From positions 1-64,000 of the forward strand of contig NZ_ANNG01000009.1 of assembly GCF_000466685.1 (NCBI RefSeq): 64,000 bases of DNA. Direction: 5' to 3'. Position 1 is the stretch's first letter. Each line of letters opens with the position of its first letter. A program made the translations under genes and the position numbers. Positions 39,752 to 44,704 of the stretch are shown one piece after another. Source of the stretch: Campylobacter concisus UNSWCS (GTDB lineage: Bacteria > Campylobacterota > Campylobacteria > Campylobacterales > Campylobacteraceae). A model generated the notes under the pieces. That model did no database searches. It saw only the letters and a program-made list of their open reading frames with translations, and was not told the DNA's origin.

Positions 39752-40672
39752 TTAGTTTAGTAGAAGTGATTTTATATCTATTTTATGCTCTATCATCTTA
39801 CTTTCAAGCATAAATTCTTGCGTAGCCTCAAGCGCTTTTATATCATCAGCCGTGATCTTTGAGCTAAAGTCGTACTGAGGATACATGCTCTTTACCGCCT
39901 CTATACTAAGCCCAGTCTCTTCAGCCGTAAATTTAAGCGCCTCATTCTCGTTTGCTTTGATGTAGGCCAAAATTTCATCCTGAGCCTTTTTAAATTTCTC
40001 AACTATGTCTTTGTGCTTTTTGTAAAACTCTCCGCTTGTTGCCGTGACGATAACTGGTGTGATGACACCTTTGCCAGTTGTCACTACATTTAGGCCTGAT
40101 TTTTGAGCATTGTAGGCCGCTGGTCCTGCAAGAAGTGCTGCATCGACGCTGCCGTTTTCAACTGCAGCTTGCGCAGCTGGGATACCCATAGAGATGAACT
40201 CTACGTCGTTTATACTAAGTCCGCCAAGAGCTAGGTATCTCACCAAGAGCTCGTTTAAGATCGTGCCTTTTGGGCCTGCTACTTTTTTGCCTTTTAGATC
40301 TTTTGGCGACTTGATGTTTTGGTCTTTAGAAAATATAACAAAGGCCTCTGGTGCCCTTGAATAGGCACTTATGATCTTTATATCAGCCTTATTTGCAGCT
40401 GCAAGTATGACCGAAGTGCCACCCACGCAGTTTAAAAACTGGAGCGAATTTGAAGCGAGTGCTTGCGTTTGCTTAGCACCTGAGGTGATCTCAGAGTACT
40501 CAACCGGCACGCCAAAAGACTTCGCATAAAAGCCTTTAAATTTATCGACGATCGATGGGACGTTTAGCGGCGATTTGACGTAGGTCATGCCGATCTTATC
40601 TAGCCCTTCGCTTGCATTTGCGACTAGGCAAAGCAAAGAGGCCGCGCACAAAACTTTAAAAAACTTTCTCAT
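39752..40672 (-). CDS. NitT/TauT-type ABC substrate-binding protein
   Basis: The 306-residue periplasmic protein has a signal peptide (cleaved near VANA, residue 20) and the NMT1/SsuA-like fold: an early MTYVKSPLNVPSIVDKFKGF, then SPKDLKGKKVAGPKGTILNE and AAVENGSVDAALLAGPAA. Relatives bind sulfonates, taurine, nitrate or thiamine precursors; the ligand cannot be told here. It is the last gene of the operon, 75 bases after the ATPase gene, and has AAAAGGAGCA upstream. Confidence 0.88.
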   Translation of the reverse strand: MRKFFKVLCAASLLCLVANASEGLDKIGMTYVKSPLNVPSIVDKFKGFYAKSFGVPVEYSEITSGAKQTQALASNSLQFLNCVGGTSVILAAANKADIKIISAYSRAPEAFVIFSKDQNIKSPKDLKGKKVAGPKGTILNELLVRYLALGGLSINDVEFISMGIPAAQAAVENGSVDAALLAGPAAYNAQKSGLNVVTTGKGVITPVIVTATSGEFYKKHKDIVEKFKKAQDEILAYIKANENEALKFTAEETGLSIEAVKSMYPQYDFSSKITADDIKALEATQEFMLESKMIEHKIDIKSLLLN

Positions 40673-40747: not shown

Positions 40748-41440
40748 CTAAATTTCACTCAAAATTTTGCGTTTTATCGCTATTAGCTCCTCGCTTAGCA
40801 GATCTCTTGGCCTTGCTAAATTTGATAGATCATAGTTTGACTTTATCCCGCCCTTTTCAAGCAAGATGATCTCATCAGCTAAAAATAGCGCCTCATCGAT
40901 GTTGTGAGTGACGAAAAGGATGGTTTTACCGGCTTGTATTTTTAAAATTTCAGCCTGCATGCTAGCTCTAGTAAACGCGTCAAGCGCGGCAAATGGCTCA
41001 TCCATTAGGATCAAATTTGCCTCATACGCAAGCACTCTAGCAAGCGAAACGCGCGAGCTCATGCCACCAGAGAGCTGCGAAACTGCGGCAAATTTAAAGT
41101 CGCTAAGCCCTATCATAGATATCAGACTATCGATCTTTGAGGCTTCAATCTCCTGCTTTTTAAGAGGAAAAACGATATTTTCATAGACGTTTAGAAACGG
41201 CATGAGGCGGGGCTCTTGAAAGACAAAGCCGATCTTTGCTTGCTCTTTAAATTTTATCTCGCCCTGACTTACGCTCTCAAGGCCAGCGATAAGGCGTAAA
41301 AGCGTGGTTTTGCCACAACCGCTTCTGCCAAGTATGACGGTGATCTTATCTTTTTTTATGCTCAAATTTAGCTCTCTTAAAACGTCGATACGCTTTTCGC
41401 CTATAAAAAAATGCTTGGATAAATTTGAAATTTCTATCAT
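40748..41440 (-). CDS. NitT/TauT-type ABC transporter ATP-binding protein
   Basis: The 230-residue ATPase has Walker A GRSGCGKTT (about residue 37), the signature SQLSGGMSSRVSLARVLA (about 122), Walker B LILMDEPFAALD (about 144) and the switch His in FVTHNIDEAL. It belongs to the SsuB/TauB/ThiZ group that powers import of sulfonates, nitrate or pyrimidine precursors. It overlaps the permease gene by 4 bases. Confidence 0.92.
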   Translation of the reverse strand: MIEISNLSKHFFIGEKRIDVLRELNLSIKKDKITVILGRSGCGKTTLLRLIAGLESVSQGEIKFKEQAKIGFVFQEPRLMPFLNVYENIVFPLKKQEIEASKIDSLISMIGLSDFKFAAVSQLSGGMSSRVSLARVLAYEANLILMDEPFAALDAFTRASMQAEILKIQAGKTILFVTHNIDEALFLADEIILLEKGGIKSNYDLSNLARPRDLLSEELIAIKRKILSEI

Positions 41441-42186
41441 TTCTCACCTCGCAAAAGGCTAAATTTCGCTATCAAAAGCAAAAAGAGCCTATCTATGAGC
41501 ACGCCGCAAATGCCGATCGTAAAAATGCCCACAAATATCCTATCCGCGCGTGAGAGCTCCTCTGCGTCGAGTATAAGATATCCCAGCCCACTTGAAGCCG
41601 CTATCATCTCAGCTCCGATGATCGCGCGCATGGCGTAGCCAAAGCCTATTCGCATGCCGACAAAGATATCTTTTAGCGCGCTTTTTAAGATGATCTTATA
41701 AAAAATTTCAAATTTACTAAAGCCAAAAATTTTACCAACCTCGATGAGCTTTATATCGCAGCTTGTTAGCCCCTTTTGGATACTTAGAAACATCGGGAAA
41801 AACGAAGCTAGGATGATAATGATAATCTTTGGCGTCTCGTTTATGCCAAACCAAAGCACCAAAATGGCGATCAAACTAAGCGGCGGGATGTTTCTAAAAA
41901 ACTCCAGTATCCACTCGTAATAAACACTGATCTTTGGCAAAAGTGCCGCTATACCGCCAAGCACGAGCGCCAAGGCAAACGAGAGAGCATATCCTGCAAA
42001 TATGCGCTTAAAGCTGATAATGGTGTGCGTAGCAAGCTCGCCGCTTAGGCTCATGCTACACATCGTTTTTATCGTAGCTATCGGACTTGGCAAGATATAT
42101 GGTGTGAAAATTTCTAGCTCGCAAACGACCTGCCAGATGGCAAAGATCGCTAGGATCAAAATGCTCTTTTTAAAAATTTCTTTCAC
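41437..42186 (-). CDS. NitT/TauT-type ABC transporter permease
   Basis: The 249-residue protein has six hydrophobic segments and the BPD_transp_1 landmark EVGKIFGFSKFEIFYKIILK followed by RIGFGYAMRAIIGAEMI. An early PYILPSPIATI is also typical of SsuC/TauC/ThiX permeases. It overlaps the ATPase gene by 4 bases and the hydrogenase-like gene by 4 bases, which argues that all four products act in one process. Confidence 0.92.
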   Translation of the reverse strand: MKEIFKKSILILAIFAIWQVVCELEIFTPYILPSPIATIKTMCSMSLSGELATHTIISFKRIFAGYALSFALALVLGGIAALLPKISVYYEWILEFFRNIPPLSLIAILVLWFGINETPKIIIIILASFFPMFLSIQKGLTSCDIKLIEVGKIFGFSKFEIFYKIILKSALKDIFVGMRIGFGYAMRAIIGAEMIAASSGLGYLILDAEELSRADRIFVGIFTIGICGVLIDRLFLLLIAKFSLLRGEK

Positions 42187-42794
42187 AGCCCATCTCCGTT
42201 GTGACAGCCGTTTTCGCAGTATAAAAGCTCGATGATCTGGTAGTTTTTAAGCTCGCTAAATTTATATGAAAGGGCGTTTTCTATCTTCTCTTTACTGCTA
42301 AGACTTAGTGTTTTTACGTCCAAATTTGTGAAAAATCCCGGCGGTATCGGACTTTGCTCGATGTTGCGCATCTTTAAATTTATAGCGTTTTGCTCCATAA
42401 AGCTTTTCCATGTCAAAAATGTGGTTCGCTCCAAATTTAGCCCCCTGCCAAGCTCTGCCAAGTCCTCGCAAGGTGTGGTCACGTAAAGCCACTCGTTCTC
42501 TTTTAGCTTTGCGCTTAGCTCAAGCGCGCTTTCTATTAAAATGGGGTTTAAATTTGAGATGAGATCGGCCTGCTCTTTGAAATTTGCCCTGATGAAATTT
42601 ACAGCCCTCGGACAGCGGCTATCGTAAATAAGCTCACTTTGCGCAAGAGCGTTTTTGTATGCGTTTTTTACGCTTTTAACGTGGTCTTTTTCACACTCTA
42701 CTACGCTAAAACCTTTGTCTTGCAAAATTTCTTTAAGTGCTGCAAAGTCGTAGATACTTTTTACAACAGGATTTAACCAAACCACTTTTTTCAT
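42183..42794 (-). CDS. Small protein resembling the [FeFe]-hydrogenase H-cluster domain
   Basis: The 203-residue protein has no signal peptide or membrane segment. It resembles the C-terminal catalytic domain of iron-only hydrogenases in three places: DSRCPRAVNFIRANF (Cys61, like the TSCCPxW block), VTTPCEDLAEL (Cys109, like MPCxxKxxE) and LLYCENGCHNGDGL (Cys193 and Cys197, like ACxxGCxxGGG). All four Cys that hold the [4Fe-4S] part of the H-cluster are thus kept. The region in between also follows the family (SNLNPILIESALELSA, SPIPPGFF), but N-terminal ferredoxin domains are absent. It heads an ABC-transporter operon. The ATG at 42794 has GGGAG upstream. A hydrogenase activity is not implied. 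Confidence 0.7.
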   Translation of the reverse strand: MKKVVWLNPVVKSIYDFAALKEILQDKGFSVVECEKDHVKSVKNAYKNALAQSELIYDSRCPRAVNFIRANFKEQADLISNLNPILIESALELSAKLKENEWLYVTTPCEDLAELGRGLNLERTTFLTWKSFMEQNAINLKMRNIEQSPIPPGFFTNLDVKTLSLSSKEKIENALSYKFSELKNYQIIELLYCENGCHNGDGL

Positions 42795-42898
42795 GAAAAC
42801 TCCCGTCAAATTTAAAGCAAAATGTAATAATTAAAATCAAAATTGTATCACTTGAAAGTAAAAAGATGGCTTTGGAGGTTAAATTTATAAGAAAACGG

Positions 42899-43873
42899 CT
42901 AGACTTTTACGTCTAAATTTCGCTTTTTTTGGCTTTTCTCCATTAGCTTTAGTATGTCTATGCCGTTTTTTTCAAGGCGCATCAGCTCCTTAAGATAGGC
43001 AAATTTCTCATCTTTATTGATATCGTAGGTCGCTAGTTTCTCGCTTCGGCCAATCACTGAGGCATAGACCTTGTTGCCGTCAAGCTTGTCGGTGTTTTGC
43101 ACATTGTAAAGCGACAGCACGCCCTCTATCACCTCTTTAAATTTCGCGCCACTCTTCATACCAGCCTTCATCAGCGTTAAAAATCTCTGCCTGCTCTCAT
43201 CGTCAGTGAAATTTATACTTTGCATTGTCTCATATTCTATCGGTGGCTTGTTCGTGCTAGTTAGCATTGAGATAGCCTTCTTGCCTATCGTAATACTCTC
43301 AACGCCGACCCTCTCGCCAAGATATTGTCTCAGCGCATAGTCCAGCCACTTGTCCTTAAACTCCTCGACGCTCATGTCCTTATCCAGTATCTCAAAGCCC
43401 TCCACGTGGCTTTTGCGGCCAAGTCCGAGCAAGGTGCCGCTATCATCTTTTGACGTGTACTCTTTTGCGAAGAGATCGACGTTTGTTGGATAGTATCCGA
43501 TGATCGATTCGTAAAGCCTTCCAAAACCAAGCGCCTCGGTCTGACTAACAAAGCTTTTAAGCTCGTTTATCTCATCTTGACTCATTTGCTTGTCGTATCC
43601 CATGAGCTTGCCCCAGATGCTTATCTTGCCATTAGCGGCCATGCCTGTGAGCGAGTTGTCTTTAGCAAATTTTAGTGGCTCATCATCTTTGTTAAATTTA
43701 CTCTCGCTCGTGCGACCTAAATTTATCTGATTGGTGTTTTTGGCTAATTTTTGAGATGATAAATTTAAAGAATTTTCGTCCGCACTAGGCTTGATATGGC
43801 TAGCACTTTGCTCCCTAATGTTTTGAAAGCCGCTATATAAATTTACATTAGCTCCATTTACGCCACCTATCAT
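42899..43873 (-). CDS. Hypothetical protein, 324 aa
   Basis: I do not recognise the family. From the ATG at 43873 (AAAGGA 6 bases upstream) the protein has 324 residues. The first 90 are Ser/Asn-rich and probably disordered (for example SAHIKPSADENS-like stretches). From about 95 it is helical and acidic, with MGYDKQMSQDEINELKSFVS, FGRLYESIIGYYP and a Lys-rich C-terminus. No signal peptide or membrane anchor is visible. The YDINKDEKFAYLKEL segment near the end looks like a degenerate EF-hand loop (D-x-N-x-D-E). It stands alone. Confidence 0.65.
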   Translation of the reverse strand: MIGGVNGANVNLYSGFQNIREQSASHIKPSADENSLNLSSQKLAKNTNQINLGRTSESKFNKDDEPLKFAKDNSLTGMAANGKISIWGKLMGYDKQMSQDEINELKSFVSQTEALGFGRLYESIIGYYPTNVDLFAKEYTSKDDSGTLLGLGRKSHVEGFEILDKDMSVEEFKDKWLDYALRQYLGERVGVESITIGKKAISMLTSTNKPPIEYETMQSINFTDDESRQRFLTLMKAGMKSGAKFKEVIEGVLSLYNVQNTDKLDGNKVYASVIGRSEKLATYDINKDEKFAYLKELMRLEKNGIDILKLMEKSQKKRNLDVKV

Positions 43874-44678
43874 TTCAAATCCTTTGCGAGATAGTTTAAA
43901 CAAATATCGTCTTTTTAAAATAATTTTTGATACAAAAGCAAATTTAGAAATTTATGGAGCTTTTTGCTTTTAAATTTAGGTTGTTTGAAGCTGGCTAATT
44001 TTTAAATATTTTATTATTTTGCTATTTTTTTAAAAATTACCTGCGCCATTTTTATTGCATTTGACCAATATATTTGGTTTTGACTGTAAGTCATATATTT
44101 AGAGCAAATTTACACCATCTCTGCCCTCGCAGCCACATTACCAAGCCATTTTTGTAGTCTATCAAAATTTAGAATTTTGCAACTTTTTGGATTATAAATT
44201 TTAAATTTGTTTTTTGGATAATTTAAATTTGAGATAGTTTGTCTGGATAATTTGCCCTGCTTTTGCATCATAAATAAACTTCGCAAACTAGCTTATAAAT
44301 TCCCTCAAAATGCAAATAACCCACCTAAAGCAAATATCACGAAAAATCAACGAAGCAAAATTTAAAAACCAACTAGCTCTAAATTTAGAAATTTATGGTG
44401 TTAGCTTTGAAATTTAATAGATAAGTTGAGCTAGAACTTTAAAACCTCATTTTTGAGGTTTTTGGCATAAATTAAAGAGCGTCTGCTCATTTTTTGTGCT
44501 TTAAAACCGCTATAAATTTACTTACACCAACTATTTTAACCTATCGAAGCACCTCATTTAAAAGCCACGAAATCAAATTTGTAATGTTCCGACTTGTAAA
44601 TTTGCCACAGCCTAAAATGGATAAATTTAAAACAAAATTTTAAAAAAATAAACGTAAAAAGATAAATTTAGAAAGAAA
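43874..44678. other. Long AT-rich intergenic region without a confident gene
   Basis: About 800 bases contain stops in all frames. Two features stand out. One is a hairpin at 44441-44463. The other is a short minus-strand remnant at 44110-44166 that reads FDRLQKWLGNVAARAEMV and a stop, similar to the last helix of glutathione S-transferases; no further part of such a gene is readable. The words AAATTTAGAAATTTATGG recur at 43943 and 44388. Confidence 0.5.
44441..44463. terminator. Isolated terminator-like hairpin
   Basis: The stem AAAACCTCA/TGAGGTTTT with a 4-5 base loop has T-runs on both sides, so it could work in either direction. No gene ends close to it, which may mean that a small transcript or a lost gene is present. 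Confidence 0.55.
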
Positions 44679-44699
44679 AGAGAGCCAGATAGGCTCTCT
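44679..44699 (-). terminator. Terminator of the ribosomal superoperon
   Basis: The 8-bp stem AGAGAGCC/GGCTCTCT with a 5-base loop starts 6 bases after the rplQ stop and is followed on the minus strand by TTTTCTTTC. It closes the S10-spc-alpha transcription unit. Confidence 0.88.
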
Positions 44700-44704
44700 G
44701 GGGA

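Follow-up and report, generated by a model that had tools for sequence, protein, structure and literature searches.

H-domains are known from hydrogenases, from presumed sensors and from the eukaryotic assembly factors Nar1/NARF. In the [FeFe]-hydrogenases (PF02906; groups A-G) the domain carries the L1, L2 and L3 motifs in that order with four cubane cysteines, and in the sensory-type proteins (groups C/D) it is accompanied by C-terminal PAS or kinase domains and by N-terminal Fe-S clusters. In the Nar1/NARF (IOP1) proteins, which are not hydrogenases, the H-domain retains a [4Fe-4S] cluster but no diiron unit. Nar1 also carries a second cluster site at its N-terminus and functions in the cytosolic Fe-S assembly of eukaryotes. 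Even the sensory hydrogenases conserve both the ligating residues and those that stabilise the [2Fe] cofactor through hydrogen bonds (PMC10055695). As for the maturation genes, a 2024 study of hydF neighbourhoods uncovered ammonia-lyases, with hydE/hydF lying together with aspA, and the word "transporter" is absent from its main text (PMC11736057).

Here we analysed a window of 64,000 nucleotides from Campylobacter concisus UNSWCS (contig NZ_ANNG01000009.1, positions 1 to 64,000), in which a compact H-domain protein, named HCL in this work, is encoded by the ORF 42794-42183 at the head of an importer operon. Our data indicate that HCL is probably a hydrogenase-derived iron-sulphur protein with a new, import-linked job. 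An earlier note, made from the sequence alone, had drawn attention to the H-cluster-like motifs and to the neighbouring transporter; the specific remodelling of the diiron pocket and the presence of relatives of the transporter beside hydE/hydF in Clostridia, both described below, were absent from it. No paper on the HCL-importer pair was found in the literature searched.

Results

HCL is a short protein with the motifs and the predicted fold of an H-domain

The HCL gene (42183..42794, minus strand) starts with an ATG at 42794, runs to 42183 and encodes a single domain of 203 residues with no second Cys cluster and no ferredoxin domains. Its five cysteines occupy positions 34, 61, 109, 193 and 197, and the last four lie in the contexts of the H-cluster motifs, as the earlier note had stated together with the lack of ferredoxin domains; both claims hold for the ORF. 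According to the alignments, the L1-equivalent motif DSRCP (residues 58-62; 42609..42623, minus strand) contributes C61 as the first cubane ligand position, the L2-equivalent motif TTPC (residues 106-109; 42468..42479, minus strand) contributes C109 as the second, and the L3-equivalent motif ELLYCENGCHNGDG (residues 189-202; 42189..42230, minus strand) contains C193 and C197, in the context CENGCHNGDG, as the equivalents of the third ligand and of the bridging ligand. The spaced pattern CP-x(40-70)-PC-x(60-160)-CxxGC appeared in none of 200,000 shuffles of HCL, and the HCL frame is the sole stop-free frame of the window that contains it. The closest homologues with a named organism come from Campylobacter concisus (93% identity) and C. 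showae (85%), and the gene is under purifying selection, with a dN/dS of 0.11-0.17 in three Campylobacter comparisons.

The Pfam model Fe_hyd_lg_C (PF02906) matched HCL with 27.7 bits, above its curated cut-off of 22.1, and matched the homologues of G638 and G1142 with 45.9 and 37.3 bits, in two stretches each, while some other homologues scored below the cut-off. HCL stays far under the cut-offs of all curated hydrogenase subfamily models (TIGR04105, 19.1 vs 450 bits; TIGR02512, 11.8 vs 406 bits). Comparison with hhalign of 17 HCL sequences against a mixed [FeFe]-hydrogenase set gave a probability of 98.1% and an E-value of 1.3e-13 over 188 columns, and all four cysteines lined up with their counterparts. 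When an HCL-only profile was searched against 398 Bacillota genomes, the next-best matches were mostly larger ORFs of about 475-880 aa, and those inspected were [FeFe]-hydrogenase-like, many of them with sensory-type C-terminal regions. A weak HCL-like match in G119 was HtpG, a false positive, and the plasmid search gave no relative.

The AlphaFold2 model of HCL, built from four sequences and with one good model out of five, reached a pLDDT of 76 and a pTM of 0.71 and was poor at the L3 end, where residues 198-203 fall below a pLDDT of 50. Its top eight PDB matches in Foldseek, CpI and TmHydABC being among the best, are all [FeFe]-hydrogenases (probability 0.99-1.00, query-normalised TM-score 0.52-0.67, with modest E-values of about 1e-3). 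The model of a second query, the Clostridium homologue P0002, was poor (pLDDT 63.5) and again placed hydrogenases on top, at low probability. When the A1 profile was compared with PDB sequences, it reached only E 0.46, to HydA1, and the fold claim is therefore not based on this search. As a prediction, the H-domain fold of HCL is thus supported by several agreeing lines of weak to moderate strength together with a strong profile-profile result, and the two checks suggested in the earlier note, a search with the iron-hydrogenase profile and structure prediction, both led to the [FeFe]-hydrogenase domain.

The cubane cysteines are kept and the diiron pocket is changed

Conservation was scored on an alignment of 17 sequences and on a second, more diverse alignment of 14. 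Every aligned homologue from Campylobacter and Clostridia has C61, C109, C193 and C197, and Cys34 varies among them; loss of the four cysteines in orthologues, which the earlier note had named as a finding that would speak against its reading, was not observed. The invariant set comprises N8, P9, D58, R60, C61, P62, P84, C109, W129, S148, P149, G153, F155, E189, C193, G196 and C197.

HCL therefore resembles the [FeFe]-hydrogenase H-domain in its predicted fold, in the order of L1, L2 and L3, in the four cubane cysteines, in the pocket prolines P9 and P84 (the equivalents of CpI P231 and P324) and in an SP...GFF/GG segment that precedes L3. In contrast, it has about 200 residues, lacks ferredoxin, PAS and kinase domains, and all three motifs differ, since L1 changes from TSCCP to D(S/A)RCP, L2 from PCxxK to PCxxL and the Met of L3 to Leu. 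The residues of the diiron pocket are also changed. In CpI numbering, A230 corresponds to N8, S232 to V10, S323 to N83 or Glu and M497 to L191; the place of C299, the proton-relay Cys of CpI, is taken by the invariant R60, and that of K358, the Lys at +3 of the L2 cysteine in hydrogenases, by the nearly invariant L112. Given the dN/dS values reported above, loss of the diiron pocket with retention of the cubane ligands represents a specific pattern and not general decay. Judged by these residues, HCL is not a hydrogenase, as both the diiron cradle and the protonation residues have been lost.

The genome of C. concisus UNSWCS lacks the H-cluster maturases

In the own genome, a 177-contig draft assembly that is 99.96% complete, the best matches for HydE, HydF and HydG reached 55, 104 and 176 bits, against curated cut-offs of 254.6, 325.6 and 312.2, respectively, the match to the HydG model being probably ThiH. 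The same genome contained no ordinary PF02906 protein or [FeFe]-hydrogenase. A complete H-cluster in HCL is therefore unlikely, and the caution that the earlier note had expressed on this point, together with its proposal to look for HydE/F/G, is borne out. Among the HCL-bearing Campylobacter, G105 has HydE and G111 has HydF and a hydrogenase; HydE fell under the cut-off in all those tested except G105. From this absence of maturases it follows that HCL is independent of HydEFG.

HCL heads the operon of a NitT/TauT-type importer

HCL is the first of four genes that run on the minus strand, followed by a permease, an ATPase and a binding protein. The NitT/TauT (SsuC/TauC-like) ABC permease (41437..42186; PF00528, 87.6 bits) begins with a GTG that shares 4 bp (GTGA) with the HCL stop, which corroborates the overlap claimed in the earlier note, and it scores 140 bits with the SsuC model, under the cut-off of that model. 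The ABC transporter ATPase (40748..41440; PF00005, 106.5 bits) overlaps the permease by another 4 bp. The periplasmic substrate-binding protein (39752..40672; PF09084, 83.5 bits) is NMT1/SsuA-like, has a Sec-signal-like N-terminal stretch, reaches 156.6 bits with the SsuA aliphatic sulfonate binding family model TIGR01728, slightly below the cut-off of 163.5, and has the taurine-binding protein 6ssy as nearest solved relative. With PF09084, PF00528 and PF00005 above cut-off in one operon, the three proteins constitute a NitT/TauT-type importer. They match TauABC, SsuABC and the NCBIfam "Sao" systems in permease, ATPase and NMT1/SsuA-type binding protein; the differences are that the transporter scores well below the taurine, sulfonate and Sao equivalog cut-offs, that an H-domain protein stands at the head of the operon and that relatives of the transporter neighbour hydE/hydF.

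Upstream of HCL, the alignment of 16 Campylobacter loci revealed a conserved block, TGATACAATTTTGATTTTAATTATTA (42825..42850, minus strand), whose TACAAT may be a -10 element. The block is conserved before HCL in Campylobacter, and the HCL upstream region of a second genus of the family contains TTGACA...ATTATGATAAT; the comparison covered the window and the HCL upstream regions of L034-L036. This conserved block could correspond to a regulated promoter. A consensus scan for Fur boxes, allowing up to 3 mismatches, found none at the HCL promoter, and matches in the window were at chance level. At the Rfam gathering threshold the HCL loci searched contained no riboswitch, only an unrelated T-box, and a permissive riboswitch scan of the window stretch produced sub-threshold matches only. 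Further along the window, about 800 bases (43904-44704) between a weakly Cj0814-like gene (42899-43903) and rplQ contain no ORF longer than 58 aa.

The pairing of HCL with the importer is conserved across two phyla

Full-length HCL was present in 35 of 150 Campylobacter-family genomes and the full-length binding protein in 34 of them, all 34 of which also have HCL. The exception is G113 (L128, 3579-4483), with an intact HCL and a permease truncated at about residue 81; this locus has neither ATPase nor binding protein, and its HCL was perhaps recently orphaned from the transporter. Three genomes, G015, G049 and G115 (L129, L130, L131), have no HCL and retain only 3' remnants of the binding-protein gene, located between rplQ and a NifU-like gene, which indicates that the HCL-transporter locus was lost there as a block. 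In a wider phylum sample of 288 genomes, 2 of the 57 genera have HCL. The gene order of the window is found again, at an HCL identity of about 35-40%, both in Clostridia and in the second genus of the family, and the conservation of the gene pair, whose verification the earlier note had recommended, therefore extends over two phyla.

In Clostridia we compared 20 complete transporter loci, of which the sample of the G150 family supplied 8 (including G150 itself), the wider sample of Bacillota one (G638) and the class sample the remaining 11. In 10 of these loci HCL lies directly before the permease; the other 10 are without it, and HCL is thus no obligatory component of transport. The genome G325 (L056, 3090-5135, minus strand) has an FAD-dependent oxidoreductase with a Rieske domain after HCL, on the same strand, and no permease; at E 1e-30 no binding protein was found in this genome, in which HCL lies on a short contig. 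The tree of the binding proteins did not support the idea that HCL was gained only once, since HCL is scattered over it with 6 changes. This distribution fits HCL as an old partner that has been repeatedly lost or exchanged.

Other genes accompany some of these transporters. Directly downstream of the binding protein, L058 (3625-4176, minus strand) and L079 (926-1459, minus strand) encode a conserved protein of 177-183 aa, 42% identical between these two distant Bacillota, for which Pfam gave no family above cut-off and which, judged by eye, may be FmdE-like. Near the transporter, three Clostridia have genes (L149, 4006-5292; L155, 4546-6192; L059, 10600-12528) that, again by eye, may encode hybrid-cluster proteins (hydroxylamine/NO reductase family); their position may be due to chance.

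Relatives of the transporter adjoin hydE and hydF in Clostridia

The genes hydE and/or hydF adjoin the transporter in 4 of the 20 clostridial loci. G292 (L058, 4181-10247) has, on one strand, a TM1266-type regulator, HydF, HydE, HCL, permease, ATPase and binding protein; G198 (L126, 5098-10016) has HydE, HydF, permease, ATPase and binding protein; G331 (L127, 5718-9575) has permease, ATPase, binding protein and HydF; and G862 (L154, 4231-9192) has HydE, permease, ATPase and binding protein, its HydF lying on the other strand and following a putative aspartate ammonia-lyase gene. In this last feature G862 resembles the published hyd maturation neighbourhoods (PMC11736057). All seven maturase proteins of the four loci pass the NCBIfam cut-offs, and the place of HCL is taken by maturase genes in G198 and G862. 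As the four gene orders differ, the linkages look independently assembled. A rough binomial calculation, assuming random placement, genomes of about 3 Mb and independent loci, gave 2.4e-5 for this linkage. The association of an ABC transporter with hydE/hydF appears to be unreported in the literature searched.

Discussion

We propose that HCL is a pared-down H-domain with one predicted [4Fe-4S] cluster on C61, C109, C193 and C197, which would act as the cytoplasmic partner of the dedicated NitT/TauT-type importer of its own operon. The reading to which we give an even chance is that this cubane-only H-domain, not a hydrogenase, handles or senses the imported compound in its emptied pocket. The cargo would be a small, probably anionic compound, which is compatible with the Arg of HCL and with the kinship of the binding protein to SsuA/TauA, and a connection of this compound with Fe-S or H-cluster chemistry is probable because relatives of the transporter adjoin hydE/hydF in Clostridia; Campylobacter would use it without HydEFG. 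The compound, a fragment of it or a metal complex would dock next to the cubane in the vacated diiron cavity, near C197 and the invariant N8, R60, W129 and S148, the pattern of conservation suggesting a lining of Asn8, Arg60, Leu112 and perhaps Trp129 and Ser148. There the cluster might reduce the compound or give it electrons, accept it as a ligand on the side of C197, or sense it. Because half of the clostridial transporters are without HCL, downstream handling or sensing is likelier than a role in transport. The earlier note had already suggested a cytoplasmic Fe-S or redox protein that acts on the imported compound or senses it, a reading that our results support in part and sharpen.

Several other explanations were weighed against this one. 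HCL could leave the compound unchanged and work as an Fe-S sensor or regulator of the transporter, responding to iron, redox state or the imported ligand and gating the ATPase or permease, or signalling substrate status in the way proposed for sensory-type H-domains and H2. We regard this as possible, if on balance unlikely: the next-best matches of the HCL profile include PAS-bearing sensory-type hydrogenase-like proteins, HCL is the first gene, with its 4-bp overlap with the permease, and half of the transporter loci in Clostridia do without it, but Pfam finds in it no output domain (PAS, kinase or DNA-binding), it has neither the C-terminal domains nor the N-terminal clusters of group C/D proteins, and the strict conservation of the pocket residues points to a small ligand bound there and not to a pure redox relay. 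That HCL is an Fe-S cluster or metal carrier or scaffold in the manner of Nar1/NARF, with the importer supplying iron or a metal-chelate, seems to us decidedly unlikely. The cubane-only logic of Nar1 and the one locus where a CobW-type GTPase and HydE/HydF share a gene run agree with such a function; nevertheless, HCL, tied to a bacterial importer, lacks the Nar1-type N-terminal ferredoxin-like [4Fe-4S] cysteines, its only extra one being the non-conserved Cys34, the binding protein is of the NMT1/SsuA group and not of a known iron-binding family, and no Fur-box-like pattern with up to 3 mismatches lies at the HCL promoter.

A mere passenger, functionally unlinked to the transporter, would explain why HCL is missing from half of the transporter loci in Clostridia and why G325 and G113 keep it without an adjacent working transporter. 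This explanation, already disfavoured, is improbable in view of the position ahead of the permease that HCL shares among Campylobacter, the second genus and Clostridia (about 35-40% protein identity), of its co-occurrence with the binding protein in 34 of 34 genomes and of the joint loss in Campylobacter genomes that keep only binding-protein remnants. Even harder to credit is a working mini-hydrogenase with a full H-cluster, matured by an unfamiliar route or from an imported diiron precursor. The four H-cluster cysteines, the pocket prolines P9 and P84, the conserved L3 motif and the transporter relatives adjoining hydE/hydF might be read in this way; against it, the equivalents of C299, K358, M497, A230, S232 and S323 are all changed in HCL, although [2Fe]-stabilising residues are kept even in sensory hydrogenases (PMC10055695), and the own genome is without HydE, HydF and HydG.

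A more specific and unlikely version of our proposal is that the importer brings in a compound for building the H-cluster, or a related iron-organic cofactor, and that HCL is the hydrogenase-derived acceptor whose empty diiron pocket is loaded with it or with one of its fragments. If true, this would reveal an unrecognised branch of H-cluster supply, kept by Campylobacter after losing, or without ever having had, HydEFG.

HCL thus defines a non-hydrogenase H-domain family with an importer as partner, for which we hypothesize the function set out above. A minimal bacterial cubane-only H-domain whose diiron pocket has been rebuilt systematically and which is tied by its operon to one importer would represent a further use of the H-domain fold, and HCL could show what role an H-domain plays without the diiron unit. 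The linkage with hydE/hydF, in turn, raises the question of whether the synthesis or salvage of the H-cluster in Clostridia depends on an imported compound.
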